From Sphingobacteriales bacterium 44-15 (lineage in GTDB: Bacteria; Bacteroidota; Bacteroidia; Chitinophagales; Chitinophagaceae), in the NCBI GenBank assembly GCA_001899685.1, contig MKWG01000046.1, positions 1-64,000 of the forward strand: a stretch of 64,000 bases of DNA, in the 5' to 3' direction. The position numbers and the translations under genes were made by a program. The notes under the pieces were generated by a model. The model saw only the letters and a program-made list of their open reading frames with translations. It did no database searches and was not told the origin of the DNA. Below, piece after piece: positions 10,434 to 41,618 of this stretch. Positions within the stretch are counted from its first letter, which is position 1. Each line of letters starts with the position of its first letter.

Positions 10434-10459
10434 TAGGTGTAAGGTGTAGGGTAGAAAGG
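10434..10459. repeat. Heptamer-periodic intergenic repeat (about 3 units)
   Basis: The plus strand reads TTAGGTG, TAAGGTG, TAGGGTA, GAAAGG, a 7-nt period located directly downstream of the sigma-factor stop (minus strand). On the coding strand this copy is pyrimidine-rich, opposite to most other arrays in the window. It is the shortest member of the set and is only convincing together with the others. Confidence 0.4.
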
Positions 10460-10461
10460 TC

Positions 10462-11046
10462 TCACCATTCCCCCCGCATTATTATGATCAGGATAAGGGA
10501 AGACTTGCGAAGGAAGGCGTGGATAAATTTGAGCGCATTGGAGAGATGGTTTTTAACCGTATTGGGTGATATTTCCAACTGGCGGGCAATATCTTCCCTG
10601 TTCATACCTTCTTCTTTGCTAAGCCTGAATACCAGTTGCTGCTGGGGCGGGAGCCGCGTTATTGCCTGGGATACCCATTCTTTGTATTCATGGGCAAGCA
10701 CCATTTCATCAGTAGTATTTTCAGTTTCTTTTACTGCCGAAGCCGACTGTAAAAACTTTCTTTCGGAAGCCAGCCTCCGGTAATGATGATATACTTTCCT
10801 GTAAACGGCGGTAAAGAAATAGGAAGAAGGATGGTCAACTTTAAGCAGGTGCTCACGGTTTTTCCAGATGTTCATAAATACATCCTGTACAATATCTTCT
10901 GCAGCCTCATCCGATCGCGTCATCTTAAAGGCTACGGCATAAAAGCGCTCTTTATAACTATCGAATAATTTTCTAAATGCCTTCTCATTGCCGGAGGCAA
11001 TCTCAGCAAGCAACTCTCTTTCATCATATTGTGAGCAGTTAGGCAA
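10462..11046 (-). CDS. ECF-family RNA polymerase sigma factor (FecI-like)
   Basis: This 194-residue protein has sigma region 2 at about 22-92 (FDSYKERFYAVAFKMTRSDE, then AEDIVQDVFMNIWKNRE) and region 4 at about 128-185 (LPPQQQLVFRLSKEEGMNRE, then an HTH IARQLEISPNTVKNHLSNAL). It lacks regions 1 and 3, as expected for group 4 sigma factors. It should direct transcription of the adjacent susC/susD locus when released by the FecR protein encoded 118 bp downstream. A TATATTTG element lies 39 bp upstream of its ATG, so its own expression probably depends on the housekeeping sigma factor. Confidence 0.95.
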   Translation of the reverse strand: MPNCSQYDERELLAEIASGNEKAFRKLFDSYKERFYAVAFKMTRSDEAAEDIVQDVFMNIWKNREHLLKVDHPSSYFFTAVYRKVYHHYRRLASERKFLQSASAVKETENTTDEMVLAHEYKEWVSQAITRLPPQQQLVFRLSKEEGMNREDIARQLEISPNTVKNHLSNALKFIHAFLRKSSLILIIIMRGEW

Positions 11047-11084
11047 GTCGGAGTACTTAGTTTAAAGAAAAATCTGTCGCTGCT

Positions 11085-11092
11085 CAAATATA
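11085..11092 (-). promoter_or_regulatory. Bacteroidota -7 promoter element upstream of the sigma gene
   Basis: Read on the minus strand, TATATTTG fits the Bacteroidota -7 consensus TAnnTTTG exactly and ends 39 bp before the sigma-factor ATG. No good TTTG -33 box is found at the usual 17-20 bp spacing, so support is partial. Confidence 0.4.
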
Positions 11093-11127
11093 GAGAAATT
11101 TATATTGTATCGGAAATACAAGAATTA

Positions 11128-11188
11128 GTGGTAAGTAATAAGTGGTAAGAAGTAAGTAGCCACTTACCACTTACTTCTTACCACTTAC
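11128..11188. repeat. TAAGTGR heptamer array with 19-bp foldback, downstream of nrdA
   Basis: On the minus strand, 13 bases after the nrdA stop, the sequence reads TAAGTGG, TAAGAAG, TAAGTGG, TAAGTGG. The plus-strand arm at 11139-11157 is perfectly complementary to 11169-11187 (19 bp, 11-nt loop at 11158-11168). It can act as a strong transcript-end hairpin for nrdA, but has no GC-rich stem or T-run, so it is not a classic intrinsic terminator. It belongs to the repeat family found at several stop codons in this window. Confidence 0.75.
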
Positions 11189-11199
11189 GTCTTTCTCCC

Positions 11200-12909
11200 C
11201 TACGCCTCGCAGCTCTTACAGCTTACCAGATTTGTCACCATCTCTTTAGACACGCTCTGGCTACGCTGATAATAGAGCGTTTTTATCCCAAGCTTCCATG
11301 CTTCAATAAGTAATTTATTAACGTCTTTTACGGGAAGATCAGCAGGAATATTGAGGTTCAGGCTTTGCGACTGGTCAACATATTTCTGACGGATGGATGC
11401 CTGCTGAATAATTTCCAACTGGCTGATCTCTTTAAAAGTTTTGAATACTTCTTTTTCTTCGGCGCTCAATTCCTTCAGATGCTGTACACTTCCATGATTC
11501 AGCATGATGCTGCGCCATGTATCTTCATTGTCAATGCCTCTCTGCACCAGTAATTCTTTCAGGTATTTGTTCTTGCGCATAAAATTACCTTTCGACAATC
11601 CTGCTTTATAATAATTGCTGCTGAAGGGCTCAATCCCCGGAGAGGTTTGTCCCAGTATTGCTGAAGAAGAAGTAGTAGGAGCGATAGCGAGCAGTGTGGT
11701 ATTTCTTTTGCCATATCCTTTCAGCAGTTCCGGTTCTCCATATATCCACGCAAGATCTTTGCTGGCCTTCATCGCTTTTTCCTGGATATCGCTAAAGATG
11801 GAAGCTGTGAGCTGCTTTGCCCTCATCCCTTCAAAAGGGATCATATTTTTTTGCAGGTAAGAGTGCCATCCTAATACGCCCAATCCCAGTGCCCTGTGCC
11901 TTTTGGCAAAAGTATTCGCCGCTTTCAGGTAATGGTTGTCTTCCGATTTGGCAATAAACTCCTGCAGCACCGCATCCAGGAAAAAGATAGCCAGCTTAAT
12001 GGCGTTGGTATCTTTCCATTCATCATACAATTCGAGGTTCATGGACGACAGGCAACAGATAAACGATTCATCTTCTGTAGACGGCAGCATGATCTCAGAG
12101 CACAGGTTGCTGGCATGAATAGTGAGGTTCATATCCTTGTATACCTGTGGCTTATTCCTGTTCACATTGTCTGTAAAGAAAATATATGGTAGTCCTTTTT
12201 GCTGGCGGCTTTCCAGCACTTTAGCCCAGGTCTGTCTTTTCTTCATGTCCCCGTCTATCATATCCTGCATCCAGTAATCCGGCACACATACTCCGAAAAA
12301 AAGATTTTGAATGGGGTGACCGATATCTTTGATAGAAAGGAATTCATCAATATCTCCATGATCAATATCCATATAAGCGGCAAAAGCCCCTCTCCGTACG
12401 CCTCCCTGCGATATGGTATCCATAGCAGTATCAAAAAGCCGCATAAAGCTGACAGCTCCGCTGCTTTTACCATTATCTGTTACAGCGCTTCCTCTCTCGC
12501 GTAATGCTCCGAAATAAGCTGAAGTGCCTCCTCCCAGTTTTGTTTGCATGATCACCTCGCCCAGCTTATGTGTAATTCCCTCAATATAGTCGGGAACATG
12601 TACGTTGAAGCAGGAGATAGGCAAGCCTCTTTCTGTACCCATATTTGCCCAGACAGGAGAGCTCAGGCTCATCCAGCCACGTTCAACCATTTCTTTGAAA
12701 GCTTCTTTCAGCTCAGGCTTATACAGCCGCTGGGCGGCCGCAGAACATATCCGTTCAATAGCTCCTTCCACGGTTTCCCCTTTCAATAAATATCCCCTGT
12801 TAAGGATCTGCTCGCTTTCTTCGTTTTTCCACCATAATTTTTCCTGCTCGCAGCTGGTGTTAAAAAGCTGCTCGGCAGTTGCCGGTGCTGTTGCAAATAA
12901 TGTCGTCAT
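11200..12909 (-). CDS. nrdA: Ribonucleoside-diphosphate reductase, alpha subunit (class I)
   Basis: The 569-residue protein carries the class I RNR catalytic set: redox Cys100 in ISCFNV, Asn268-x-Cys270-x-Glu272 (the N-x-C-x-E active site), the partner Cys in FICCLSS (285/286), the radical-transfer pair Tyr546-Tyr547 and a C-terminal Cys564-x-x-Cys567 tail that is recycled by thioredoxin or glutaredoxin. It reduces ribonucleotides for DNA synthesis in the cytoplasm. It is shorter than the 750-plus residues of E. coli NrdA because the roughly 90-residue N-terminal ATP-cone is absent. It follows nrdB on the same strand with a 43-bp gap. The ATG at 12909 is the natural start. Confidence 0.96.
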   Translation of the reverse strand: MTTLFATAPATAEQLFNTSCEQEKLWWKNEESEQILNRGYLLKGETVEGAIERICSAAAQRLYKPELKEAFKEMVERGWMSLSSPVWANMGTERGLPISCFNVHVPDYIEGITHKLGEVIMQTKLGGGTSAYFGALRERGSAVTDNGKSSGAVSFMRLFDTAMDTISQGGVRRGAFAAYMDIDHGDIDEFLSIKDIGHPIQNLFFGVCVPDYWMQDMIDGDMKKRQTWAKVLESRQQKGLPYIFFTDNVNRNKPQVYKDMNLTIHASNLCSEIMLPSTEDESFICCLSSMNLELYDEWKDTNAIKLAIFFLDAVLQEFIAKSEDNHYLKAANTFAKRHRALGLGVLGWHSYLQKNMIPFEGMRAKQLTASIFSDIQEKAMKASKDLAWIYGEPELLKGYGKRNTTLLAIAPTTSSSAILGQTSPGIEPFSSNYYKAGLSKGNFMRKNKYLKELLVQRGIDNEDTWRSIMLNHGSVQHLKELSAEEKEVFKTFKEISQLEIIQQASIRQKYVDQSQSLNLNIPADLPVKDVNKLLIEAWKLGIKTLYYQRSQSVSKEMVTNLVSCKSCEA

Positions 12910-12952
12910 TTAAATTTTATTTTATAGGTAATGGATGGATTACAGTATAAGC

Positions 12953-13927
12953 CTAAAACAAATCGTATGCTGAGATACTCTTGTCGAATTTGGTATACTC
13001 CACCGGGCGTTTTGCAAAAAAGTCGTCAAGGCTGTTTGAAAAAACTTCTTCTTCAAACCACAGCATTGGCGCACTTTCTTCAGATCTGATATTAAAGATA
13101 GGAGCGCAGCCGATTTGCGTAAGGCTGTCATCGGCTCTTTTCTTCATAAAGTTGGTAAGATTGCGCCTGCTGATAATGTCTATATCTCCTGCATTAAAGA
13201 TCCACTCCAGCATACGCTCCTCCGTTGCAATAGATTGCTCAACCACTGACCGCACATGCTCCATCATTGCGGGCGTGAATATTTCGGGATATTCTTCCTT
13301 TATTTTATTGACAAGAAAGATCCCGGCATTGGCGTGGATCTGCTCGTCCACCGAAGTCCACGCAATAATATTGCTGACGTTTTTCATCAGGCCTTTGAAC
13401 CTGGTGAAGGCGAGGATGATGGCAAACTGGCTGAACAGGCTGACATTTTCGATCAGCAGGCTGAACAATATAAGCGAAACTGTATATTCCTTTTTATCTG
13501 TGGATTTTGCATTTTGCAAAGCAGAAGATAAATAATTAATACGCTCCTTAATCACAGGCACTTCAACCAGGCTTTCAAACTGGTTATTGTAGCCGAGCAC
13601 TTCCAGCAGGCGGGAATATGCTTCCGAGTGCCTGAATTCACATTCAGCAAAGGTAGCGCCCAGCCCGTTCATCTCCGGCTTGGGAAAATGATGATATAAA
13701 TTGCCCCAGAATGATTTCACGGCCACTTCAATCTGCGCAATGGACAGCAGGCTGTTTTTTATGGCATTCTGCTCCGCCGGGGTCAGATGAGCATGAAAAT
13801 CCTGTATATCTGCCGTAAAATCCACCTCGGAATGCACCCAGAATGATTTATTGATAGCACCGGAGAACTGGAGGATCTCCGGGTATTCAAACGGTTTATA
13901 CTGAACTCTTTTATCAAATAGACCCAT
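12953..13927 (-). CDS. nrdB: Ribonucleoside-diphosphate reductase, beta subunit (class I)
   Basis: The 324-residue protein has a di-metal site and radical tyrosine pattern: Glu67, Glu97-x-x-His100, Tyr104 (E-F-R-H-S-E-A-Y), Glu160 and Glu195-x-x-His198 in DEQIH. These match the R2 ligands and the tyrosyl-radical position (His plus 4). The first ligand is Glu67 rather than the Asp seen in E. coli NrdB. The C-terminus (ISAYDLF) should dock onto NrdA. No ATP-cone is fused to either end, unlike some Bacteroidota R2 proteins, which are about 100 residues longer. It is transcribed ahead of nrdA and probably forms a two-gene operon with it. Confidence 0.95.
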   Translation of the reverse strand: MGLFDKRVQYKPFEYPEILQFSGAINKSFWVHSEVDFTADIQDFHAHLTPAEQNAIKNSLLSIAQIEVAVKSFWGNLYHHFPKPEMNGLGATFAECEFRHSEAYSRLLEVLGYNNQFESLVEVPVIKERINYLSSALQNAKSTDKKEYTVSLILFSLLIENVSLFSQFAIILAFTRFKGLMKNVSNIIAWTSVDEQIHANAGIFLVNKIKEEYPEIFTPAMMEHVRSVVEQSIATEERMLEWIFNAGDIDIISRRNLTNFMKKRADDSLTQIGCAPIFNIRSEESAPMLWFEEEVFSNSLDDFFAKRPVEYTKFDKSISAYDLF

Positions 13928-14084
13928 AACAAATGAATTTTAGACAGGACAAAACCCCCTCCTCTTATCTCAATATGAAAGGTGCGATCAATATTAAATG
14001 ATTGGAAGTCTTCCGTCCCGCGGTGGCGATAAAGTTCATAATTAATTAATTTTCCGGGTTTAAAAGAAATTAACAGGATGTGAA

Positions 14085-14220
14085 TAAGTGATAAGAGGCA
14101 AGTGGGTAGGGGTAAGCGGGGAAATAGGCGGTAATGAATGGTGAATATTGTGCAATGTCAAACGGGAGAAGTGAGGGATGAAAAGTGAATAGTGAAATGT
14201 CAAATGTGAGAGGTCAAAAC
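14085..14220. repeat. Long degenerate heptamer-repeat tract between nrdB and the SGNH gene
   Basis: This fills most of the 331-bp gap 13928-14258. The first half reads TAAGTGA, TAAGAGG, CAAGTGG, then a one-base slip, TAGGGG, TAAGCGG; the second half reads GTGAATA, GTGAAAT, GTCAAAT, GTGAGAG, GTCAAAA. Both parts keep a 7-nt period with G in fixed positions and are purine-rich on the plus strand. It lies between two divergent gene starts, so here it cannot be a transcript end of either neighbour. No coding frame is visible. The rest of the gap shows only AT-rich DNA. Confidence 0.65.
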
Positions 14221-14258
14221 ATGCACCCCTTAAACAGGTAAAACAGTACATTTACTTT

Positions 14259-14990
14259 ATGAAACTGATTTTATCCTTCGCTGTTTTTACTGTTGCTGCC
14301 ATTTTAAAAACTGATGCACAGACCATTGAAGTACATACTTCAGATACCGCTTATCTTGCCCCGCTGAAAGACCGGTTCACTGCCAGGTGGCCACACAACA
14401 AAACCATCAACCTGGTATTTCACGGGCATAGCGTGCCTGCAGGGTATTTTAAAACGCCGGCAATCCATACTATGGAAGCCTATCCTGAACTGACATTGAA
14501 ATATTTGTCGGGAAAATACCCCTTTGCCGTGATCAACGTGATCAAAACCTGCATAGGCGGAGAGAACGCGGTGCAGGGTGCGGCAAGATTTGACAGTGAA
14601 GTGCTGACACATAAACCGGATATTCTCTTTATAGATTATGCGCTGAATGATCGTGGCGCCGGGCTTGAAAAATCCCGTATCGCATGGGAATCCATGATTG
14701 AAAAAGCATTAGCTGAACATGTAAAGGTTGTGCTTTTCACGCCTACGCCGGACACAACAGAAAATATTCTTGATACCAGCGCTCTCTTATACAAACATAC
14801 TCAACAGATCATTGCGCTGGCAGACAAATACCATATTGCCGTAGTGGATTGCTACAATGCGTTCAGAGCACTTGCCGCAAAGGGAAGAGGTATCAGGCAG
14901 TATATGTCGCAGGTAAATCATCCCAATGCACGTGGGCATGAAGTAGTGCTCGGAGAGATCAGGAAAATATTTGGAGAGGAGAATAAGTGA
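14259..14990 (+). CDS. Secreted SGNH/GDSL-type hydrolase
   Basis: The 243-residue protein has a signal peptide ending near TDAQ (20) and the four SGNH blocks in degenerate form: block I FHGHSVPAG with Ser58 as likely nucleophile (GHS in place of GDS), block II Gly100/101 in CIGGEN, block III DYALND with Asn130, and block V NHPNARGH with His221. The usual Asp three residues before the His is Gln218, so the triad may use another acid. Such enzymes are esterases that deacylate glycans. It is convergent with a DUF1080 gene and near a SusC/SusD locus, consistent with carbohydrate use. Its stop codon lies inside a TAAGTGA heptamer. Confidence 0.8.
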   Translation: MKLILSFAVFTVAAILKTDAQTIEVHTSDTAYLAPLKDRFTARWPHNKTINLVFHGHSVPAGYFKTPAIHTMEAYPELTLKYLSGKYPFAVINVIKTCIGGENAVQGAARFDSEVLTHKPDILFIDYALNDRGAGLEKSRIAWESMIEKALAEHVKVVLFTPTPDTTENILDTSALLYKHTQQIIALADKYHIAVVDCYNAFRALAAKGRGIRQYMSQVNHPNARGHEVVLGEIRKIFGEENK

Positions 14991-15011
14991 TAAGTGGTAA
15001 GTAATAAGTAT
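14984..15011. repeat. TAAGTGR heptamer array overlapping the SGNH gene stop
   Basis: The plus strand reads TAAGTGA, TAAGTGG, TAAGTAA, TAAGTAT. The TGA of the first unit is the in-frame stop of the SGNH hydrolase gene. The array fills nearly all the space to the 3' end of the convergent DUF1080 gene at 15027. Confidence 0.7.
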
Positions 15012-15026
15012 CCTGAATCTTTGCAT

Positions 15027-15827
15027 TCACTTCTTCTTCTTCCTGTATTCTTTCGACAGATCAATGATCTCCACTTTTCTGAATTCCACAGGATGGCTTT
15101 CGCTCTGCAGTGAAATATAGCCTGATGATAATAGCTGCCCGTCTTTCTTTTGGGCAGGGTCATAATTATTCACTGCGCCGCCCCCGATTTGAGGCTTTTC
15201 ATATACCAGCACGGTATCGCCATTGGTAATATGCCTGATGATGGAATCTCCCAGCACGATCACTTCTGCCCGCACCCATTCTTCATTACGAAAAGTTTTA
15301 GAAGTAGAGTTTATACAATGTTGTGTGATCAGCTTACCATCCATTTCCACATTAGTGCCCGGCGTGCAAAGATTGCAGGTAGACCGTTCTCCGGTTGAAT
15401 CTCCTCCCAGCAACTGGTCTTCAATGGAAATAGGGAAGTCCTGGTCTTTGAGCATGGTAGCAGGGTTCTGGCAATGCAGCATGATGCCACTGTTCTTGTA
15501 AGCCCAGCCTTCGCCTCCTTTTACCTGTTGCCCTACAAAACGATATTCTACTGCAAGTATATAATGGGAATATGGCCTTTTGTAAAAGATATGCCCATAT
15601 TGCTGGTTGAAGCTGTCATAATGATCGTAAGACACTTTCATCACGCCGTTTTCCACGCGGAAAGTGTTTCCAAAATTATCTTTGTAATCATGTCCTTTGA
15701 TCTTTACCGTCCAGCCTTTAAGGTTCTTCCCGTTAAACAATTGCTTCCATTTCCTGTGAGCAGTCTGCTGTGCATTGGCAGATACGGCTAAGAGCAAAAA
15801 GACACAGCAGATGGATATATTTCTCAT
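15027..15827 (-). CDS. Secreted DUF1080 (3-keto-disaccharide hydrolase-like) protein
   Basis: The 266-residue protein has a signal peptide (cleavage near SANAQ, about residue 20) followed by one concanavalin-like beta-sandwich of the DUF1080 type: QLFNGKNLKGWTVK at the start, KNSGIMLHCQNP and SIEDQLLGGDS in the middle, GYISLQSESHPVEFRKVEI at the end. Some members of this family cleave 3-keto-glycosides, others simply bind carbohydrate. The C-terminus is a run of lysines. It is the gene nearest the second sigma factor and may belong to the same regulon, but it is separated from it by only 57 bp on the same strand, so co-transcription behind the sigma gene is also possible. Confidence 0.85.
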   Translation of the reverse strand: MRNISICCVFLLLAVSANAQQTAHRKWKQLFNGKNLKGWTVKIKGHDYKDNFGNTFRVENGVMKVSYDHYDSFNQQYGHIFYKRPYSHYILAVEYRFVGQQVKGGEGWAYKNSGIMLHCQNPATMLKDQDFPISIEDQLLGGDSTGERSTCNLCTPGTNVEMDGKLITQHCINSTSKTFRNEEWVRAEVIVLGDSIIRHITNGDTVLVYEKPQIGGGAVNNYDPAQKKDGQLLSSGYISLQSESHPVEFRKVEIIDLSKEYRKKKK

Positions 15828-15884
15828 ATCATTTAATGTTTAATTACCGGAGGAGTTAAAAAATAAATATAGCATTGATGCAGC

Positions 15885-16475
15885 TTATTTATGAGCCAGC
15901 CTGAGATTGTTTATGGAAGATTGGAGATATGCCGGCAATGACTGCCCTAATTTTTTTACAGCTATAGCCAGTTGATTGCGCACCGTAAGTTCGGAAATAT
16001 GAAGAATAGCGGCAACTTCTTTGTATCGCAGACCGTCTTCTTTTACCAACTGCAGGATGATCCTGCACTTGGGCGGCAATTCATTTATGGCAGCCTGGAT
16101 CCTTTTTACAATATCAGCAGAAATGCATAACTCTTCGGGTGTGCCGAATGCAACATTTATTTCAAATGGGATAGCATCAAGGCTGGTTACAGGATTTTTA
16201 TACTGCCTTGTAATATACTTCAGGCTAAGATTTTTGGTAACAGTATACAGGTAAACCCTTAGGTTGTCTATTTCCGCAATACGGGCACGCATCTGCCAAA
16301 GCTTGATAAACACATCAGATACGATCTCTTCCGCACTTTCTTTCGACCTGATAAAAGCAAAAGCGGTGCGGTAGAGCGGGTGGAAAAATAAATGGCACAG
16401 CTCCTTATATGCCTTCATATCATCATATAATGCAATCTTCTTTTGTAGTTCCGGTATTTGAGCAAGCTTATTCAA
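15885..16475 (-). CDS. ECF-family RNA polymerase sigma factor, second locus
   Basis: This 196-residue protein has region 2 (LCHLFFHPLYRTAFAFIRSK, AEEIVSDVFIKLWQMRARI) and region 4 (LPPKCRIILQLVKEDGLRYK, then HTH AAILHISELTVRNQLAIAVK). The longest frame starts with TTG at 16475; no in-frame ATG lies upstream before the frame closes, and the next ATG (codon 19) would cut into region 2, so TTG is preferred. It is divergent from fecR of the same locus (120 bp between them), not in the usual sigma-then-fecR order, and probably controls the susC/susD pair at 17.9-22.8 kb. Confidence 0.9.
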   Translation of the reverse strand: MNKLAQIPELQKKIALYDDMKAYKELCHLFFHPLYRTAFAFIRSKESAEEIVSDVFIKLWQMRARIAEIDNLRVYLYTVTKNLSLKYITRQYKNPVTSLDAIPFEINVAFGTPEELCISADIVKRIQAAINELPPKCRIILQLVKEDGLRYKEVAAILHISELTVRNQLAIAVKKLGQSLPAYLQSSINNLRLAHK

Positions 16476-16595
16476 AACAGGTTGAAGTTTTTTATTCGCT
16501 TTCGAAAGTGAAGGTAGGTTATTTTTAAAAAAAATATTTTTTGTTTTGGTACATATTATAAGCAGCCGGGCTCCTTATAGTATTGATGTATTAAT
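16476..16595. promoter_or_regulatory. Divergent control region between sigma and fecR
   Basis: This 120-bp AT-rich spacer should hold promoters for both directions. A perfect 10-bp palindrome CTTTCGAAAG lies at 16499-16508, followed by long A and T runs (16528-16550). No exact TAnnTTTG was found. An operator role for the palindrome is a guess. Confidence 0.35.
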
Positions 16596-17702: not shown

Positions 17703-17802
17703 TCTTATTGTTGAGTCTGTCCATATACATAAAAAATTAAATCATTCATAACTAAAAAACGCTGCTGCTAATGAATAAAAACGAATAAAACAAAAAACAA
17801 AA

Positions 17803-17827
17803 CGGAGAATGTTGCGACCATTCTCCG
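17803..17827. other. Perfect 9-bp hairpin between fecR and susC
   Basis: CGGAGAATG (17803-17811) pairs with CATTCTCCG (17819-17827) around a 7-nt loop TTGCGAC. It is not followed by a T-run, so it is better read as an mRNA stability, processing or attenuation element in the susC leader than as an intrinsic terminator. Confidence 0.6.
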
Positions 17828-17844
17828 CTAATTAAAAGACAAAA

Positions 17845-17858: not shown

Positions 17859-17888
17859 CTTTCATCATTTTTAAATCAAAGCCAAGAT

Positions 17889-21304: not shown

Positions 21305-22825
21305 ATGAAAAAAATAAAATACCACTATATATTATTGTTTGTTGCGGTAATAGTAGGCGCCTCCTGTAAAAAATTCCTGGAGGAGAAACCAACAAACTTT
21401 ATTACAACTGAGTCATCGCTGTCCAGCCTGAAAGTAGCAAGAGCATTTACAAATGCCAGCTATCAGTTTCTCCAGAGTGCTATGCTGGGAGGACAGGCCT
21501 CTTCTTACGGAGGAAATACCTGGAATTTGATGGAGTTCATGACGGGTAAGTCAAACAGCGATCTCGGGCAAACCAATTTTAATCTTTTCCAGAATTTAAG
21601 CTATAATGCTACTTCTTTTTATGTTGATACCTGGTGGCAGAATTTATACAAGGGAGTAGGTGCTTGTAATCAGGCTATTGAGCAGTTGCCGACCATTACT
21701 GCACCGGGACTCACTGATGAGGTAAGAACAAATATGATTGCTGAAGCGCATACCATGCGGGCTTTGTACTATTTTTTTCTGGTAAGGATGTATGGGGCCG
21801 TGCCGGCGGTAACGGAAGTAGCCAAGGAAGTATCAGGGCTGAATTTGTCCAGGACTGCGGCAAAAGATATATATGACAATATCATTATCCCTGACCTTTT
21901 ACTGGCAGAGCAATCCACACTTCCATGGAAAGACAATACAGGACTGGTGTCTATGGGATTTATTAAATCTCTTTTGGCTGATGTATATCTCACGTATGCC
22001 GGCGCCGCTATCAATGGAGGAGAACAATATTATGCGGAATCTGCTAAGAGATCATTGGATGTTATTAACAATGGAGGATATACACTTTTTCCTGAATATA
22101 CAGATATGATCAGGCCGGGGAATAAGAACACGGGAGAATTTATCTTCCAGGTGCAGTATGCCGCTGCTGTTCCCTCAAACAACCCGCTTACCCCTTTAAC
22201 CATTCCCAACTATTCGCGGATATCCAAGTATTCAGATGAATATGGTTCAGTGTACCCCACCGAAGAGTTTGTTGCCTCATTTCTTGCCGGGGATAAGAGA
22301 GCACAGGAACGCCAGTTTTTTTATACCAGTTATCCAAATGCGGAGACAGGGGCAATTGTTAATTTCAGCGGGCACTATATTTACAAGTGGTTTGATTCAA
22401 CAGCCGTTGTTAACACGCTTAAATCTGATCTGAATTATACATTATACCGCCTCGCTGATGTAATGCTCATGTATGCTGAAGCTTCCAACCGCGCAGATGG
22501 CGCTCCCAATACGAAAGCCATTGAATGTGTAAATAAAATACGGGAAAGGGCAGACCTTGCCCCGGTTGGCTCTATGAGCCAGGATGCCTTTGAGAAAGAA
22601 GTATGGCTGCAACGCTATTTTGAGCTGTGCTTTGAAAATAAAATGTGGTTCGATATGCTGAGAACAAGAAAAGTGCATAATGATGTTACAGGCAACTGGG
22701 ATGACTTTGTAGGTCATAAAACAGTATTCAATGCTACGTTTACTGAAAAGCAGCTGCTGTTCCCTGTACCCAAGCAGGAAATAGACGTTAATCCAAACCT
22801 GTTGCCTAATAATACAGGGTTTTAA
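21305..22825 (+). CDS. SusD/RagB-family nutrient-binding lipoprotein, second locus
   Basis: The 506-residue protein has a lipobox with Cys21 in VGASCKKF and the SusD landmarks: AEAHTMRALYYFFLVRMYGA near residue 150, ADVMLMYAEASNR near 385, LQRYFELCFENKMWFDMLRT near 440 and the closing LLFPVPKQEIDVNPNL. It binds the nutrient at the cell surface for the SusC channel encoded just upstream. The stop codon TAA is the first three bases of a run of TAAGTGR heptamers. Confidence 0.95.
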   Translation: MKKIKYHYILLFVAVIVGASCKKFLEEKPTNFITTESSLSSLKVARAFTNASYQFLQSAMLGGQASSYGGNTWNLMEFMTGKSNSDLGQTNFNLFQNLSYNATSFYVDTWWQNLYKGVGACNQAIEQLPTITAPGLTDEVRTNMIAEAHTMRALYYFFLVRMYGAVPAVTEVAKEVSGLNLSRTAAKDIYDNIIIPDLLLAEQSTLPWKDNTGLVSMGFIKSLLADVYLTYAGAAINGGEQYYAESAKRSLDVINNGGYTLFPEYTDMIRPGNKNTGEFIFQVQYAAAVPSNNPLTPLTIPNYSRISKYSDEYGSVYPTEEFVASFLAGDKRAQERQFFYTSYPNAETGAIVNFSGHYIYKWFDSTAVVNTLKSDLNYTLYRLADVMLMYAEASNRADGAPNTKAIECVNKIRERADLAPVGSMSQDAFEKEVWLQRYFELCFENKMWFDMLRTRKVHNDVTGNWDDFVGHKTVFNATFTEKQLLFPVPKQEIDVNPNLLPNNTGF

Positions 22826-22882
22826 GTGGTAAGTGATAAGTGGTAAGCGGTAAGTGGTGCAGGGTACACTTATCACTTACTA
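22823..22882. repeat. TAAGTGR heptamer array with 14-bp foldback, starting at the susD stop
   Basis: Beginning with the susD TAA stop the plus strand reads TAAGTGG, TAAGTGA, TAAGTGG, TAAGCGG, TAAGTGG: five consecutive units. The segment 22829-22842 is perfectly complementary to 22867-22880 (14 bp, 24-nt loop). This is the cleanest array of the family in the window. Confidence 0.85.
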
Positions 22883-22922
22883 CTGAGGGCTTGCTGTTTA
22901 ACGGCCGCGTATATTTTTTTAT

Positions 22923-22974
22923 GCCACGAATGCACGAATGTATTTTAATTATTATTTATTTGTGCATTCGTGGC
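22923..22974. repeat. 13-bp inverted repeat (GCCACGAATGCAC element)
   Basis: GCCACGAATGCAC at 22923-22935 is perfectly repeated inverted at 22962-22974 around a 26-nt AT-rich spacer. T-rich runs lie on both sides, so it could terminate transcription in both directions between the convergent susD and ATP-grasp genes. I recall closely similar elements in intergenic DNA of many Bacteroidota genomes. A smaller hairpin, GTCCG-CTTA-CGGAC, follows at 22995-23008. Confidence 0.65.
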
Positions 22975-23055
22975 TTTGTTGTGTTCATAAATCAGTCCGC
23001 TTACGGACCGCTGGAATAAGTGGTGGTATACTCCTTTTCCACAAATCTATGAGGC

Positions 23056-23085
23056 ATCTACTTATCACTTACTACTTACCACTTA
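23056..23085. repeat. TAAGTGR heptamer array starting at the ATP-grasp stop
   Basis: On the minus strand, starting with the TAA stop of the ATP-grasp gene (plus 23083-23085), the sequence reads TAAGTGG, TAAGTAG, TAAGTGA, TAAGTAG. Thus both convergent genes bordering 22826-23082 have their own array reading outward from the stop codon. Confidence 0.8.
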
Positions 23086-31639: not shown

Positions 31640-31695
31640 AGTTTGTCAAAGATAAATAAAAAGAGAGAATTTTATCCCCTTCCGGGGCCCTGCTT

Positions 31696-34644: not shown

Positions 34645-34685
34645 TAAGCAGATGTTTTCTCATGATGCGTTAAGCACTCTGATTG

Positions 34686-34712
34686 GCGTGGCGCTCCGGC
34701 GTCACGCTTCAT
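34686..34712 (+). terminator. Intercistronic hairpin between leuA and leuB
   Basis: GCGTGGCGC (34686-34694) pairs with GCGTCACGC (34699-34707) with one G-U, around a TCCG loop, and TTCATTTT follows. It resembles a weak intrinsic terminator or a processing site within the leu cluster and may reduce expression of genes downstream of leuA. Confidence 0.5.
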
Positions 34713-34743
34713 TTTAAAAAACTGCTTGCCTTTTAACTAGTAT

Positions 34744-35859
34744 ATGAAAAAAAATATCGCCGTTATTTTTGGAGATGGAATAGGTCCCGAGGTGACTCAG
34801 CAGTCCATTAATGTGCTCAATGCGGTGGCGAAGACCTTTTCCCACGAATTTGAGTACACTTATAGTCTTATGGGTGCTGATGCGATAGATAAAACAGGCG
34901 ATCCGCTACCTGATGCAACAATAGAAGCCTGCCTGAACAGCGATGCTGTTTTATTTGGTGCGATAGGGGACCCCCGTTATGACAATGATCCGGCTGCAAG
35001 GGTACGCCCCGAGCAGGGACTGCTCAGACTGAGAAAGGCATTGCAACTGTTTGCCAATATCCGCCCTGTTGCAGCATACTCATCATTGCAACATTTATCG
35101 CCCCTGAAAGCAAAGCAGACCGAAGGGGTTGATTTTGTGATCTTCAGGGAGCTGACAGGCGGTATTTACTTCGGGAAAAAAGAATTGAGCGAAGATAAAA
35201 CACAAGCCTCCGACGATTGTGTATATAACCGCAGTGAAATTGAACGCATAGCGCATCTTGCATTTAAGCTGGCACAGCAACGCCGTAAGCAACTGACGCT
35301 TGTAGATAAGGCCAATGTGCTGGAGACATCCCGGTTGTGGCGGCAGGTGGTCAGGGAGATGGCTGCGCAGTATGCAGAAGTGGAGACATCGTATATGTTT
35401 GTGGATAATGCTGCCATGCAGATCATTATCAACCCCCGGCAGTTTGATGTGATCCTGACAGAAAATATGTTTGGGGATATCATCAGCGATGAAGCAAGCG
35501 TAATCACCGGTTCACTGGGATTGCTGCCGTCTGCTTCCATAGGTAATGGCACTGCATTGTTTGAGCCCATACATGGCTCATATCCCCAGGCTGCAGGGAA
35601 AGATATTGCAAACCCTGTCGGGTCAATCCTGTCGGCAGCTATGATGCTCGATCATTTCGGGATGACGGCTGAGGCTGGTCTTGTACGGGAGGCAGTGGAA
35701 TGGACGCTCAAGCACAATTTTGTGACTAAAGATATTGACCCGGTCAATTTTTACCTTACTACTACTATCGGGGAACTGATCGTGGAATATGTAAGCAATA
35801 AAGTGCCGGGAGAAGATCACGAAACCAATGTGGAATTAAGAAAATCAACAATAATATAA
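34744..35859 (+). CDS. leuB: 3-isopropylmalate dehydrogenase
   Basis: The 371-residue protein carries the isocitrate/isopropylmalate dehydrogenase pattern: IAVIFGDGIGPEV (4-16), GAIGDPRYD, LLRLRKALQLFANIRP (substrate Arg residues), and the metal/NAD block NMFGDIISDEASVITGSLGLLPSAS, split around residue 245. It oxidises and decarboxylates 3-isopropylmalate in leucine synthesis. leuC and leuD, which encode the isomerase acting between LeuA and LeuB, are not in this cluster. Its stop TAA opens a purine-rich heptamer tract. Confidence 0.95.
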   Translation: MKKNIAVIFGDGIGPEVTQQSINVLNAVAKTFSHEFEYTYSLMGADAIDKTGDPLPDATIEACLNSDAVLFGAIGDPRYDNDPAARVRPEQGLLRLRKALQLFANIRPVAAYSSLQHLSPLKAKQTEGVDFVIFRELTGGIYFGKKELSEDKTQASDDCVYNRSEIERIAHLAFKLAQQRRKQLTLVDKANVLETSRLWRQVVREMAAQYAEVETSYMFVDNAAMQIIINPRQFDVILTENMFGDIISDEASVITGSLGLLPSASIGNGTALFEPIHGSYPQAAGKDIANPVGSILSAAMMLDHFGMTAEAGLVREAVEWTLKHNFVTKDIDPVNFYLTTTIGELIVEYVSNKVPGEDHETNVELRKSTII

Positions 35860-35945
35860 AGGAGGAAGGCCGAAGGCAGAAGGAGTAAGGCCAAAGCGAG
35901 AGCAGCCTGTATTTTCCTTTGCCCTATACCCTATACCTACACCTT
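35857..35945. repeat. Purine then pyrimidine heptamer tract between leuB and ilvD
   Basis: From the leuB stop the plus strand reads TAAAGGA, GGAAGGC, CGAAGGC, AGAAGGA, GTAAGGC, CAAAGCG, AGAGCAG, then after a spacer CCCTATA, CCCTATA, CCTACAC, CTTAAAA. Both halves have a 7-nt period; the second is pyrimidine-rich and partly complementary to the first. The last units end 13 bp before the ilvD ATG. Confidence 0.65.
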
Positions 35946-35957
35946 AAAAATCAAACG

Positions 35958-37652
35958 ATGAGCAATAACGGTAACACAGCATTAAACAGGTTTTCAAAAG
36001 TATTGACACAGGATGAGACACAGCCTGCTGCACAGGCAATGTTATATGGCATTGGATTAACGGAAAATGATCTGAAGAAAGCACAGGTGGGTATTGCCAG
36101 CATGGGGTATGATGGCAACACCTGCAATATGCACCTGAATGACCTGGCTAAGATTATAAAACAAGGTGTGTGGAATAATGATTTAGTGGGATTGATCTTT
36201 AACACGATCGGTATAAGCGATGGCATAAGCAATGGTACGGATGGAATGCGTTACTCATTGGTAAGCCGTGATTTGATTGCTGACAGTATAGAGTCTGTAT
36301 GTGGTGGCTTTTATTATGACGGACTGATTGCAATACCCGGTTGCGATAAAAATATGCCCGGTTGTATCATGGCTATGGGGCGTTTGAACCGCCCTTCTAT
36401 AATGGTATATGGTGGTACTATTGCTCCCGGACACTACAAGGGTCAGGAGTTGAATATTATTTCAGCGTTTGAAGCATTGGGACAAAAGATAGCCGGCAAG
36501 CTTGATGACGGCGATTTCAAAGAAATTGTAAAGCATTCCTGCCCCGGTGCAGGCGCCTGTGGGGGGATGTATACTGCTAATACTATGGCCAGCGCCATTG
36601 AAGCATTGGGTATGAGCCTGCCATATTCTTCAAGTAATCCTGCTATAAGCGATGATAAGAAGAAAGAATGCCTTGATGCAGGTAAAGCCATAAAAGTTTT
36701 GCTCGAAAAAGACATCAAGCCAAGGGATATCATGACGAGAAAAGCTTTTGAAAACGCGATCGTTGTAATAATGATTCTTGGAGGAAGTACAAATGCGGTA
36801 TTGCATCTTATTGCAATGGCGAGAAGTGTGGGCATTGAATTAACGCAGGATGACTTCCAGGCAATCAGCGATAAGACGCCGGTGTTAGCTGATTTTAAGC
36901 CCAGTGGTAAATACCTGATGCAGGAACTGCACGCACATGGCGGTATACCCGCAGTAATGAAGTATTTACTGAAAAAAGGCTTATTGCATGGCGATTGCTT
37001 AACGGTTACTGGGAAAACATTAGCTGAAAATCTTGAAGACATCGCTGAGATCAGTTTTGAAACGCAGGACATTCTTTATCCGCTCGAAAAGCCTTTAAAG
37101 GCTACCGGGCATCTCCAGATATTGTATGGCAACCTTGCGGAAAAAGGAAGCGTTGCAAAAATATCGGGCAAGGAAGGTGAACGTTTTGTCGGTCCTGCAA
37201 GAGTATTTGACGGTGAAAAGAAGCTGATAGAAGGACTGGCTAATGGCAGGGTCAGGCATGGCGATGTGGTGGTTATAAAGAACGAAGGACCCAAAGGCGC
37301 ACCCGGCATGCCGGAAATGCTGAAGCCCACCGGAGCGATCATCGGCGCCGGGCTGGGAAAATCCGTAGCGCTGATCACTGATGGGAGGTTTAGCGGAGGC
37401 ACGCATGGTTTCGTTGTTGGGCATATCACACCCGAAGCCTTTGAAGGTGGGTTGATAGGCCTGGTGGAAGATGATGATATCATTGAACTGGATGCCATCA
37501 AAAATACCATCACACTTAATGTGCCGGATGAAGTAATAGCCGAAAGAAGAAAGCGCTGGAAGAAGCCGGAGCTGAAAGTGAAAAGCGGTGTATTGTATAA
37601 ATATGCGAAGCTGGTTAAAGATGCGAGTGAAGGCTGTGTGACTGATGAATAA
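35958..37652 (+). CDS. ilvD: Dihydroxy-acid dehydratase
   Basis: The protein is 564 residues from the ATG at 35958; a TTG at 35919 would add a non-conserved 13-residue tail encoded by repeat DNA and is rejected. Conserved blocks include [16 protein letters not shown] (Fe-S cysteines), [26 protein letters not shown] and [19 protein letters not shown]. It dehydrates dihydroxy-acids to 2-oxo acids in valine and isoleucine synthesis using an Fe-S cluster. It is followed by a foldback hairpin and a damaged ORF6N gene. Confidence 0.96.
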
Positions 37653-37681
37653 GAGTTGCTGTTAGCCTTTCAGCCGCCAGC

Positions 37682-37726
37682 TATCAGCTATGATTGTCAC
37701 GATGTCCTGTGGCTGTATAGCTGATA
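37682..37726. repeat. 10-bp foldback after ilvD
   Basis: TATCAGCTAT (37682-37691) pairs with ATAGCTGATA (37717-37726) around a 25-nt loop, with AGCTATC/AGCTATG at 7-nt spacing in the left arm. It looks like another member of the heptamer foldback family, here about 30 bp after the ilvD stop. Confidence 0.5.
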
Positions 37727-37799
37727 AGGATTAATAATCAAAATATAAACTGGTCGCAAATTGGGACCAGTTTACAGCTACTAACTATTTTTCTTAACC

Positions 37800-38401
37800 A
37801 TGAAACAACACCAATGCAAGTATAGGTCATACAGAATAAGATCTATGAAATACGCGGGCAGAAAGTAATGCTTGATTTTGATTTGGCAGAATTGTATAAT
37901 GTAGAGACGAAGGTTTTTAATCAGGCTGTAAAAAGAAATATAGAAAGCTTTCCTGCCGAGTTTATGTTTCAATTGACAAGGACAGAATGGAGACTGATGA
38001 GGTCACAATTTGTGACCTCATATCCACAAGGTGCTGATAACCAAGTCAATGAATTGTCGCAGAACGTGAGGGTGACGCAAAAGAAGAGAAGAAAGGACTT
38101 ACTTCCCTATGCCTTCACCGAGCACGGCGTAACGATGTTGGCAAGCGTATTGAAAAGCCCGATTGCAAGGAAGATGAACATCGCAATAATAAAAGCTTTT
38201 ATTGCCATGCGGAAAATGGTGATACAGTATTCGGAAGTGATAAAGGTGATTGATGATTTGAAAGAACGCATAGAAGGGCATGACGCCCGGTTGAACCAGA
38301 TCTATGATGCTTTGGAAAATATGCTGGACAAAAAAGCGGAAGAAGAAAAAAAGCTGAGAGCATGGAGTGAGCGGGAGAGAATCGGATTTAAAAAACAATG
38401 A
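37800..38401 (+). pseudogene. ORF6N-domain DNA-binding protein, frameshifted near its start
   Basis: The open frame from ATG 37868 (177 residues) starts MLDFDLAELYNVETKVFNQA, which is already inside the conserved ORF6N (KilA-N-related, phage-derived) domain. The preceding 14 codons in the same frame (37826-37867) encode VIQNKIYEIRGQKV, exactly the usual domain start, but a TAG at 37823-37825 blocks them, while a good ATG at 37800 opens MKQHQCKY in another frame. A single-base change near 37824 would join the two. So the gene is broken, or is read by frameshifting, or starts late and lacks part of its domain. A C-terminal coiled coil (about 120-165) is intact. Such proteins are often phage antirepressor-like. 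Confidence 0.7.
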
Positions 38402-38431
38402 TAAATTATGTAATTCAAAATCGAAAGTACC

Positions 38432-40207
38432 ATGAGTAGCGCAACAGAAACAATGAAAAAGAAAAAATCAGAGAGTAAAGAAACTACAGTACGTCCGCAG
38501 GGTAAAGTCAAAGCTGAAACTTCAATAAGTGGAAGTGTGGCTGTGCTGGAAGCATTGGTCGCTGAAGGGGTCACTGATTTTTTTGGTTATCCGGGTGGCG
38601 CTATCATGCCTATATATGACGCGTTATATGATTATACGGATACGCTCAATCATATACTCGTACGCCATGAGCAGGGAGGTATACATGCGGCACAGGGTTA
38701 TGCACGCACGTCAGGCAAGGTAGGAGTAGTGTTTGCAACCAGCGGTCCGGGTGCAACAAATCTTGTAACAGGTCTGGCGGATGCACAAATTGACAGTACA
38801 CCATTGGTTTGTATTACCGGGCAGGTGTTTGCTCATTTGCTTGGCACCGATGCTTTCCAGGAAACTGATGTGATCAATATTACCACGCCGGTTACCAAAT
38901 GGAATTACCAGGTAACGGATGCCAATGAGATCCCCTCTGTACTGGCAAAGGCGTTTTATATAGCGCGTACCGGCAGACCGGGGCCTGTGTTGATTGATAT
39001 CACCAAAAATGCGCAGGTTCAGAAATTCGACTACCAGGGTTATAAGCCCTGCTCGCATATCCGCAGCTATCGCCCCAAGCCAATTGTTCGTAAAGAATAT
39101 ATACAGGCGGCGGCTGAATTAATTAATAAAGCTGAAAAACCATTTGTGCTTTTAGGACAGGGCGTTATCCTTGGCGAAGCGGAAAAGGAGTTCAAGGCTT
39201 TTATTGAAAAGGGAGGAATACCCACTGCCGCTACAGTGCTTGGACTTAGTGCATTGCCAACTGATCACCCGTTGCATGTAGGTATGCTGGGTATGCATGG
39301 CAACTATGGCCCGAATGTGCTTACCAATGAATGTGATGTATTGATTGCCGTGGGGATGCGCTTTGATGATCGCGTAACCGGGCGTCTTGATAAATATGCC
39401 AAGCAGGCTAAAGTTATTCATCTTGATATTGATCCTGCGGAAATTGATAAGAATGTACCGGCAACAGTACCTGTTTGGGGAGATTGCAAAGAGACATTAC
39501 CCCTGCTTACCGCACTGATTGATAAAAAAGATCACCCGGAATGGTTGAATACATTCAGGAAAATGCAGGCAGAGGAAGAGGATGTAGTGATCAATCCGGA
39601 ACTGCATCCCAAAGGTGAAGTGATGACAATGGGAGAAGTGCTGGAGGTACTGAATGAGCTTACCGGGGGAGATGCTGTTGTAGTAACTGACGTTGGTCAG
39701 CACCAGATGGTAACCTGCCGGTATGCAAAATTCAACAAAACAAGAAGCAATGTTACTTCCGGCGGATTGGGCACAATGGGGTTTGCTTTGCCCGCGGCTA
39801 TCGGCGCTAAGTTTGGGGCTAAAGACCGTCCTGTAGTTGCTGTCATCGGTGATGGTGGTTTCCAGATGACCTTGCAGGAGCTGGGCACTATTATGCAGTT
39901 TGATGTGAATGTAAAGATCATCATTCTTAACAACAACTTCCTTGGAATGGTACGTCAGTGGCAGCAATTATTCCATGACAGGCGGTATTCCTTTGTAAAT
40001 ATCACCAGCCCTGATTTTGTGACTGTGGCAAAAGGCTATGGTATTGCCGGAAAAAGCATTTCAAAACGGGAAGGGCTCAAAGCTGCGCTCAGCGAAATGC
40101 TTGAGCACAAAGGCGCCTACCTGCTCGAAATCATGGTAGGAAAAGAGAACAACGTATTCCCAATGGTGCCGCAGGGATGTGGCGTTGCAGAAATAAGGCT
40201 GAAATAA
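38432..40207 (+). CDS. ilvB: Acetolactate synthase, large (catalytic) subunit
   Basis: The 591-residue ThDP enzyme has the PYR domain with the catalytic Glu in RHEQGGIHAAQGYAR (about 75), FAD and middle domains, and the ThDP/Mg motif GDGGFQMTLQEL...NN (about 473-500). It makes acetolactate and acetohydroxybutyrate. The first 28 residues are Lys-rich and not conserved. The regulatory subunit ilvN is not directly adjacent: a methyltransferase gene lies in between, with only 13 bp from the ilvB stop. Confidence 0.96.
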   Translation: MSSATETMKKKKSESKETTVRPQGKVKAETSISGSVAVLEALVAEGVTDFFGYPGGAIMPIYDALYDYTDTLNHILVRHEQGGIHAAQGYARTSGKVGVVFATSGPGATNLVTGLADAQIDSTPLVCITGQVFAHLLGTDAFQETDVINITTPVTKWNYQVTDANEIPSVLAKAFYIARTGRPGPVLIDITKNAQVQKFDYQGYKPCSHIRSYRPKPIVRKEYIQAAAELINKAEKPFVLLGQGVILGEAEKEFKAFIEKGGIPTAATVLGLSALPTDHPLHVGMLGMHGNYGPNVLTNECDVLIAVGMRFDDRVTGRLDKYAKQAKVIHLDIDPAEIDKNVPATVPVWGDCKETLPLLTALIDKKDHPEWLNTFRKMQAEEEDVVINPELHPKGEVMTMGEVLEVLNELTGGDAVVVTDVGQHQMVTCRYAKFNKTRSNVTSGGLGTMGFALPAAIGAKFGAKDRPVVAVIGDGGFQMTLQELGTIMQFDVNVKIIILNNNFLGMVRQWQQLFHDRRYSFVNITSPDFVTVAKGYGIAGKSISKREGLKAALSEMLEHKGAYLLEIMVGKENNVFPMVPQGCGVAEIRLK

Positions 40208-40220
40208 TAAACTTGCCGGA

Positions 40221-40931
40221 ATGCACCAAAAATCAACCATAGAAGAGATAAGGTCACGCTTTGATAATGATGTGGAGCGTTTCTCCAACCTGGATACAGG
40301 CCAGGTATCTACTATTGACGCTACTGTTTCATTGGAGCTGATCACCGAAGCTGCAAAAAGGATCATACCGGGCGCGACCGAGCTTTTAGATATTGGGTGC
40401 GGTGCGGGCAACTACACATTGATGATGCTGCAAAAGTTACCCGGTCTTAACTGTACTCTGGCAGACCTGAGCAAGCCTATGCTCGACAGAGCCTTTGCAA
40501 GAGTGTCGGAAAAGACGGATGGTATCGTAAAAACGGTGCAGGGAGATATCAGGAAAGTGGATTTACCGGAAGACCATTTTGATATCATACTCGCCGGTGC
40601 GGTATTGCATCATTTACGTGATGATAAAGACTGGGAATCCTTGTTCGGAAAATTGTACAGGTTGCTGAAGAAAGGAGGCTGCCTGATGATATCAGACCTG
40701 GTGATACAGGAAGCGGATGCTGTCAGCGATTATACCTGGGAGCGTTATGGCGATTATCTTGAAGGCGTGAATGGAAAGGCATACCGGCAAAAAGTAATGG
40801 AATATATTGAAAAGGAAGACAGCCCCAGATCTGTAACATACCAATTGGAGCTGATGAAAAAAACAGGGTTTCGCTCCACGGATATCCTGCACAAAAACAT
40901 GTGCTTTGCAGCTTTTGGCGGTATAAAATAA
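40221..40931 (+). CDS. Class I SAM-dependent methyltransferase
   Basis: The 236-residue protein has the Rossmann methyltransferase motifs: I LLDIGCGAGNYT (55-66), acidic loop LADLSKPMLDRA, motif II/III VQGDIRKVDLPEDHFDIILA, motif IV AVLHHLRDD, and KKGGCLMISDL. The target is unknown; the N-terminal RFDNDVERFSNL segment is somewhat like tRNA uridine (CmoA-type) methyltransferases but this is weak. It is embedded tightly in the ilv operon (13 bp after ilvB, 28 bp before ilvN) and should be co-expressed with it. Confidence 0.85.
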   Translation: MHQKSTIEEIRSRFDNDVERFSNLDTGQVSTIDATVSLELITEAAKRIIPGATELLDIGCGAGNYTLMMLQKLPGLNCTLADLSKPMLDRAFARVSEKTDGIVKTVQGDIRKVDLPEDHFDIILAGAVLHHLRDDKDWESLFGKLYRLLKKGGCLMISDLVIQEADAVSDYTWERYGDYLEGVNGKAYRQKVMEYIEKEDSPRSVTYQLELMKKTGFRSTDILHKNMCFAAFGGIK

Positions 40932-40959
40932 ATTCTATCAAATCAGGAAACTTAAAGAA

Positions 40960-41547
40960 ATGAAAAAGGAATTTACCATAACAGTATATACTGAAAATCA
41001 TATTGGGTTGCTAAACCGCATTGCCATTATGTTTTCACGCAGGAAGATCAATATTGAAAGCCTCAATACATCACCCTCAGAAATTGAGGGGATACACAGG
41101 TTTACTATAGTTATCCACGAAGTGGAAGACGTAGTTAAAAAGCTGGTGCGTCAGATAGAAAAGCAGGTGGAAGTGCTGAAAGCATACTATAATAACAACG
41201 ATGAAATAGTATGGCAGGAGCTGGCGCTCTATAAAGTCTCTACCGATAAAGTGATCGAGGATGTGAAGGTGGAAAGGTTATTGCGCCAGTATGGCGCCAG
41301 AGCGGTGGTGATCCGCAGGGACTATACTGTTTTTGAAACAACCGGTCACCGGGAAGAAATAGATAAGCTGACCGAAGTGCTGGGTAACCTGGGATTGATA
41401 GAATTTGTGCGCAGTGCGAGAGTGGCTATCATTAACGCGAGCAGCGGCTTTTACGAAAAGCTGAAAGAATTTGAAGAGGAAAAACCGGGTGACGAGATCG
41501 TGGAAAACGAGTTCCTGGATAAGCAGGATGAGGTGTTTTCGATGTAG
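40960..41547 (+). CDS. ilvN: Acetolactate synthase, small (regulatory) subunit
   Basis: The 195-residue protein starts with an ACT domain (FTITVYTENHIGLLNRIAIM, 5-24; valine sensor) and has the second ALS-small domain at about 80-165 with FETTGHREEIDKLTEVL. It should activate the IlvB enzyme and give it feedback inhibition by branched-chain amino acids. Its TAG stop begins the next heptamer tract. Confidence 0.93.
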   Translation: MKKEFTITVYTENHIGLLNRIAIMFSRRKINIESLNTSPSEIEGIHRFTIVIHEVEDVVKKLVRQIEKQVEVLKAYYNNNDEIVWQELALYKVSTDKVIEDVKVERLLRQYGARAVVIRRDYTVFETTGHREEIDKLTEVLGNLGLIEFVRSARVAIINASSGFYEKLKEFEEEKPGDEIVENEFLDKQDEVFSM

Positions 41548-41618
41548 GGGCTATGAGCAGTGAGCTATGGGCAATGAGCAGCGGGCTGTGAGCCCATGGC
41601 TCATAGCTCACCGCTAAA
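41545..41618. repeat. Heptamer tract with nested foldback after ilvN
   Basis: From the ilvN stop the plus strand reads TAGGGGC, TATGAGC, AGTGAGC, TATGGGC, AATGAGC, AGCGGGC, TGTGAGC: seven units with GGC or AGC at the end. GTGAGCTATG (41560-41569) pairs with CATAGCTCAC (41602-41611), and GGGCT/AGCCC (41583-41595) forms an inner hairpin. It belongs to a different unit family from TAAGTGR but keeps the same 7-nt period, stop-codon position and foldback plan. Confidence 0.75.

Follow-up and report, generated by a model that had tools for sequence, protein, structure and literature searches.

Seven-nucleotide repeat arrays between the genes of a Chitinophagaceae genome and the strand on which they leave genes

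Repeat arrays in the window and in its genome

The window analysed here is a 64,000-nt stretch (positions 1 to 64,000) of contig MKWG01000046.1 from Sphingobacteriales bacterium 44-15, a member of the Chitinophagaceae. Its genes include nrdA, a GDSL/SGNH gene, susD, an ATP-grasp gene, a ClC gene, leuB and ilvN, and these seven names, given in a preliminary description of the locus, agreed with Pfam at the family level. Six sites exceeded the threshold of our array detector, which measured tandem periodicity from the number of matches at a set lag:

11123-11157, minus strand: 3' hairpin arm, complementary to the nrdA array listed next; both arms together fold at −39.8 kcal/mol (z −5.6)
11160-11193, minus strand: TAAGTGR-type array beginning 6 nt past the nrdA stop, with its G strand on the nrdA coding strand; 5' hairpin arm
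14179-14207, plus strand: degenerate GTGAATA/GTGAAAT-type array in a divergent region, with no link to a stop
14983-15010, plus strand: TAAGTGR array running over the GDSL/SGNH stop codon (TGA, 14988-14990), without a pairing arm (z +0.7)
22823-22858, plus strand: TAAGTGR array; its first TAA serves as the susD stop
23060-23085, minus strand: TAAGTGR array; its first TAA serves as the ATP-grasp stop

Three further features belonged with them:

22867-22884, plus strand: complementary arm of the susD array (CACTTATCACTTACTACT); hairpin z −6.0
35865-35883, plus strand: weak GAAGGCA array directly past leuB; TRF period 7, score 31, below the detector threshold
41550-41579, plus strand: GCTATGAGCAATGA array directly past the ilvN stop; TRF period 14, score 46

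Seven stop-linked sites had been proposed for this region. Those at susD, ATP-grasp, SGNH and nrdA passed the detector, ilvN was recovered by TRF only and leuB was weak. The ClC site (31036) failed both the detector and TRF, and position 10434 did not pass as an array either. The nrdA array had been placed 13 bp from its stop, which the boundaries used here reduce to the 6 nt listed above. The ilvN array and its downstream arm folded at −40.2 kcal/mol (z −5.2), so that three of the four sites folded gave z values of −5.2 to −6.0, and the SGNH array was the unfolded one. The susD stop looked native, because the C-terminal codons matched in three congeners (G002, G004 and G006). No part of the window matched Rfam at the gathering score. 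A separate inverted repeat (CCACGAATGCAC ... GTGCATTCGTGG) was observed at 22924-22973, between the susD and ATP-grasp arrays.

The source genome (G000; 6.0 Mb, 46 contigs) was sampled as 60 systematic 20-kb stretches plus the window, 1.264 Mb in total, in which a simple dicodon model called 945 genes (83% coding). All gene ends used below come from this purpose-made caller and not from annotation. Comparison genomes were two other genera of the same family (G014 and G032) and 11 congeners, among them G002 and G004-G011.

The 7-nt arrays between genes of G000 are genuine, genome-wide and built on many words. That such arrays occur throughout the intergenic DNA had been claimed for the window and held for the sample: period 7 gave 124 arrays, 118 of them mostly intergenic, against 1-15 for each of periods 4-6 and 8-13. 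The other genera gave 28 (G032) and 42 (G014) period-7 arrays, with at most 5 and 7, respectively, at other periods (5, 6, 8-11 and 13). A simpler lag score over 864 kb returned 31, 32 and 12 intergenic tracts at lags 7, 14 and 21 and at most 2 at any other lag from 4 to 30; in the window, at a score of at least 12, lag 7 gave 2 tracts, lag 14 gave 3 and all remaining lags from 2 to 21 gave 0.

TAAGTGR, the word first noticed, is real and is one among many. Recurring unit types in G000 were TAAGTGR, GTGAATR, GTGARAC/GAYAAAC, ATTTGAR, GTTTRYR, GGCTATG and AGGTTTC. We give no count of words, since single-linkage clustering merged 73 arrays into one cluster. Word families were common to G000 and the other genera more often than in column-permuted controls (G014: 32/35 against 12.2 expected; G032: 13/27 against 5.8). 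The arrays were strongly skewed in composition, with a mean absolute GC skew of 0.71 against 0.28 for random intergenic segments, and the G strand was entirely without C in 45/117 arrays. Stops in all three frames occurred on the purine strand of 59/81 arrays (47% with unit columns permuted), and the other strand was stop-free in every frame in 59/81 (61% permuted).

Period-8 arrays (AATTTGAA / AATGTGGA and TTACCATC types) were seen beside period-7 ones in G004, G006 and G002 (e.g. L130, L131, L134, L136). The period-8 and period-7 counts were 5 and 6 in G004, 5 and 6 in G006, 3 and 16 in G002, and 6 and 84 in G000.

Strand, stop codons and reading frames

The strand richer in G than in C points out of genes, and the rule is one of strand as much as of stop codon. 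For arrays overlapping a stop or within 10 nt of it, G>C on the coding strand outnumbered C>G by 34:2 in G000, 10:1 in G032 and 13:2 in G014; the non-overlapping arrays 0-10 nt past a stop, summed over the three genera, numbered 29 G to 3 C. Near starts (10 nt or less) the G:C ratio was reversed (1:12, 0:1 and 0:2, respectively). Between genes in tandem, with the three genera pooled, G:C shifted from stop to start through 34:6, 18:10, 7:10, 3:17 and 0:19 in successive quintiles. Convergent pairs had G running outward from each gene, with 12 G to 3 C in the left half and 19 C to 2 G in the right half. Divergent regions taken alone followed no strand rule (7 arrays fitted, 5 did not, 2 were ties), and divergent gene pairs carried fewer array-bearing regions (10/124 against 81/485, p 0.016; in the other two genera, 0/17 against 14/68, p 0.06, and 0/18 against 21/65, p 0.004).

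In tandem regions, arrays separated from each gene by over 40 nt numbered 11 G and 10 C in the first half and 3 G and 11 C in the second, so the strand rule is mainly a gene-edge rule. General base skew was rejected as its source, because GC skew past stops was near 0 in array-free G000 regions (+0.01, +0.06). In the 20 nt before starts of the same regions it was −0.17, and at starts the rule is therefore partly a background trend.

The claimed tie to stop codons was borne out in all three genera. The arrays lying within 10 nt of a stop numbered 36/103, 12/27 and 15/34, against 24.8, 5.4 and 6.6 expected when each array is placed at random in its own gap (±15 nt). The same placement test gave no excess at starts (13/95 against 18.1, 1/24 against 4.5, 2/23 against 3.5). 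Seeding of arrays by the stop codon itself was considered and rejected: register with the stop was seen where the array overlaps it (21/28, a count that is partly circular), and among G-oriented arrays 0-10 nt past a stop only 3/29 were in register, with about 1.7 expected. In 16 of the 19 orthologue pairs with an array in both members, the C-termini could be aligned through the final residue of each protein, which indicates that most of these stops are older than the present form of the arrays.

It had also been claimed that a short array closes all three reading frames, and this was supported. All frames were closed within 12 codons at 19/30 array ends against 51/464 array-free ends in G000, and at 6/10 against 9/59 and 5/9 against 3/45 in the other genera. 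The next native-frame stop was nearer at array ends in G000 (median 7 against 12 codons at array-free ends, p 0.02); in neither of the other genera did the gain reach significance (p 0.73 and 0.12). By median position the native frame was the last to be closed (7 against 3 and 6 in G000; 7 against 4 and 6, and 7 against 2 and 3, in the others), so a pure read-through barrier is poorly supported as the main role.

Pairing arms, terminators and turnover

The preliminary description had several arrays folding on a complementary arm, which applies to many arrays and to three of four window sites but not to the SGNH array or to most of G014. In G000, the complementary arm lay downstream only of the G arm in 37 arrays, upstream only in 1 and on both sides in 1 (112 arrays); in G032 the ratio of downstream to upstream was 24:0 (26 arrays). 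Only 2/34 arrays of G014 reached the same score, and both lay in one paired gap where near-zero skew gave them opposite labels, one downstream and one upstream; hairpins are thus a feature of two of the three genera. In nine of ten two-array gaps of G014 compared by eye, the flanking arrays were different words. Inverted repeats that overlap arrays were 18 G-first, 0 C-first and 1 tie, compared with 53, 51 and 33 for other intergenic ones. Selection for an RNA hairpin through a sense-strand G.U bias was not seen, as arm mismatches in 31 hairpins comprised 24 G.U-type and 20 A.C-type on the sense strand, with 55 others. Since the strand rule holds in G014, where arms seldom pair, pairing is not needed for it.

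A hairpin scoring as a terminator was found overlapping the array at 8 of 79 array-bearing 3' ends and elsewhere at 3, so that most of these ends lack the G+C hairpin and T-run of an intrinsic terminator. At some sites, a hairpin directly past the stop gives the G000 arrays a likeness to such terminators; they differ in usually having no T-run, in being G-first and in arms without covariation. By eye, the susD and nrdA ends carried arrays in G000 and the usual hairpin-plus-T terminators in G002, G004 and G006. For orthologues at array-bearing G000 ends (gap at least 60), terminators were present in 12/37 array-free against 0/19 array-bearing pairs; for orthologues at array-free G000 ends, in 11/95 and 2/13, respectively. 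These pairs are not independent, and the counts carry no control for space. With array space masked and gap and context matched, 4 terminators stood beside G000 arrays against 11.1 expected (9/1000 simulations). Earlier uncontrolled counts (2/38 against 49/217; outside arrays, 0/49 against 69/307 at tandem ends and 3/30 against 37/157 at convergent ends) shrank to this figure under the mask and gap control. The congeners showed no clear deficit (2 against 3.3 expected, 335/1000), and terminators exceeded expectation in G014 (12 against 7.6) and G032 (3 against 0.7). General replacement of terminators by arrays was therefore rejected, being unseen in the congeners and reversed in the other genera. 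The transcript-end element first proposed is thus suggested in G000 only; with the deficit limited to that genome and no wobble bias, a terminator role is possible there and unproven.

Alignment of orthologous regions in relatives, proposed earlier as a check, revealed arrays that turn over between congeners around stops that look native, with some arrays shared. Two close pairs, with 91-96% (G002/G005) and 86-98% (G004/G006) mean protein identity over the stretches compared, held identical arrays in one region and several others that were one-sided or had changed units. The word was shared in 8 of 19 orthologous array pairs (unit similarity at least 0.8) against 21% of random pairs, the pairs not being independent, and from this some arrays are probably inherited. 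Re-occupation of the same site by new words appeared at first (19/56 against 13/108) and was lost after controls: stratified by gap, all pairs gave 16/46 against 11/77 (p 0.07), and with same-word pairs dropped 7/37 against 11/77 (p 0.49). Unit decay gave no gradient that would indicate a direction of growth (17 against 16 of 40).

The spread of single words was patchy. Exact TAAGTGR doublets were present in 14/58 genomes, the source genome included, with 95 in G000 and 0-22 in its 11 congeners (22 in G007, 0-1 in G008-G011). GTGAATR triplets occurred in 16/295 genomes of the class, again including the source, and TAAGTGR triplets were scattered across many phyla, in at least 114 stretches.

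Comparison with known heptamers and interpretation

Cyanobacterial STRR heptamers are dispersed tandem heptamers between genes and resemble the G000 arrays in form. The tie to stop codons had been presented as what sets the present arrays apart from them; that distinction fails, since stop-proximal sense-strand heptamers are known in Xanthomonas and Nostoc (PMC4692102). Rehm et al. (2015) described there GGGNATC and GGGGA(C/T)T heptamers with degenerate positions. In Xanthomonas, 89-93% of these repeats are intergenic. Their G strand is the coding one at up to 50 bp from a stop and the non-coding one at up to 50 bp from a start. They overlap stops, are rare between divergent ORFs, and include 70 and 75 pairs that the authors call convergent, an order that we take as G-first. 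The majority are flanked by the same genes in both of two species, although their length and sequence vary. The authors discuss the strand rule in relation to G-quadruplexes and identify no function (PMC4692102). The placement and orientation rules of the G000 arrays are thus already reported for heptamers in two groups of unrelated bacteria. The two share the 7-nt period with degenerate unit positions, the strand rule, the G-first pairs and the scarcity between divergent genes; they differ in that G000 has many words per genome, in that no sampled array there has four GGG runs (so the four G-tracts of GGGNATC occur in 0/117), and in that one genus (G014) usually has different words in two flanking arrays. 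The rule persists here when the word changes, when arms do not pair and when GGG tracts are missing.

MacGregor (2015) reported TAACTGA heptamers in Beggiatoaceae, cyanobacteria and five Bacteroidetes (PMC4679880). They are intergenic, and one of their strands carries stops in every frame; 13 of them overlap an upstream stop codon, and some Bacteroidetes regions also hold other heptamers. Unlike the G000 arrays, they are a single word, lie mostly on the coding strand just 5' of starts, and have related heptamers that are seldom repeated in the genome studied there. The G000 words differ, and 12/13 of the arrays lying no more than 10 nt from a start are C-oriented. An excess of heptamers in bacteria had been noted still earlier without an accepted cause, as cited in both papers (PMC4692102, PMC4679880). 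Our literature search, largely of papers outside subscription, returned no other report of such multi-word arrays.

We consider it about an even chance (roughly 0.5) that the arrays are non-coding heptanucleotide satellites that turn over between congeners and are filtered by position. They would arise and rearrange in fixed 7-nt steps through slippage and template switching. A positional filter would then keep them out of coding DNA, make them fewer between divergent genes and leave the G strand running out of the gene, the strand rule being perhaps a product of transcription out of genes or of selection acting on gene edges. Contact with the stop codon would mainly reflect where arrays can sit, not a translation barrier, and some hairpin pairs of G000 may have come to serve as terminator-like structures at 3' ends. 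This reading is favoured by the near-exclusive period 7, the words common to genera, the turnover between congeners and the patchy spread, and also by arms without RNA-like covariation, the absence of site recurrence and a strand rule that does without pairing. Against it stand the terminator deficit beside G000 arrays and the sharing of words between genera itself, which is not expected of slippage from random seeds. The 29:3 strand bias is too strong for any filter that we could name with confidence and favours an active role or a polarised process still to be named.

A rival reading is a transcript-boundary element, a bidirectional structure resembling a terminator or insulator. A transcript leaving a gene on either strand would run through the G arm and then the C/U-rich arm, and would be released by a hairpin together with a weak RNA:DNA hybrid over the second of these, or by Rho loading on the C-rich arm. 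We hold this as a possibility with considerable doubt. The G-first order of arms and inverted repeats argues for it, as do the folds at three of four window sites, the terminator deficit with the 12/37 and 0/19 counts in relatives, the scarcity between divergent genes, and a rho gene found in all three genomes searched. The seldom-pairing arrays of G014, the coexistence of arrays with intrinsic terminators in G014 and G032, the lack of a clear deficit in congeners and of a sense-strand G.U bias, the mere 8/79 ends where a hairpin with T-run overlaps the array, and the absence of site recurrence argue the other way. The barrier to translational read-through first suggested, in which three-frame stops directly past the natural stop would catch ribosomes, fits the closure of all frames, the nearer in-frame stop of G000 and the all-frame stops on the purine strand. 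It is nevertheless improbable, for the native frame closes last in three genera, its gain is not significant in two, arrays 0-10 nt past stops are out of register, and the strand rule applies also at starts, where no ribosome comes from the gene.

Inverted arrays flanking some gaps (susD/ATP-grasp, 22823-23085; L037, L061, L062) would suit the termini of a mobile or REP-like element that a transposase mobilises by reading one hairpin strand. Sites compared by eye did not share their inner sequence, and the flanking words in G014 mostly differ as well; we judge this reading very unlikely. Even less credit can be given to G-quadruplex elements, as proposed for GGGNATC heptamers. The strand rule matches that of the G4-forming repeats described by Rehm et al. 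(PMC4692102), and at least four GG runs were present in 17/117, 8/27 and 5/35 arrays of the three genera; four GGG runs were present in 0/117, 0/27 and 0/35, and 46, 8 and 19 arrays had no GG at all. The strand rule is therefore independent of such quadruplexes, and its presence in mostly non-G4 words weakens the G-quadruplex reading for this lineage.

We tentatively suggest that a word-independent rule operates in distant bacteria, by which the G-bearing strand leaves the gene whatever the word, its pairing or its G4 capacity. If true, it would imply a shared and so far unrecognised process, either transcription-polarised generation of repeats or a boundary element read by period and strand composition. 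How a 7-nt repeat acquires its polarity with respect to gene ends becomes a testable question, and the congeners, some rich in arrays and others with almost none, offer a natural comparison.

Two further observations came from the genus. An additional gene resembling ribonucleotide reductase, whose product is 93-94% identical to the protein of window 11200-12909, was present only in G000 (G000:C3:443874-445577, L087) and G005 (G005:C20:57760-59463, L086) among the 12 genomes of the genus searched. By eye, a box AAACCTATAAGGTTT ... AAACCTTATAGGTTT formed an inverted repeat upstream of the acetolactate synthase genes in five congeners (L104-L108), in the gap upstream of the orthologue of window 37868-38401, and G000 carried another short inverted repeat at this gap.
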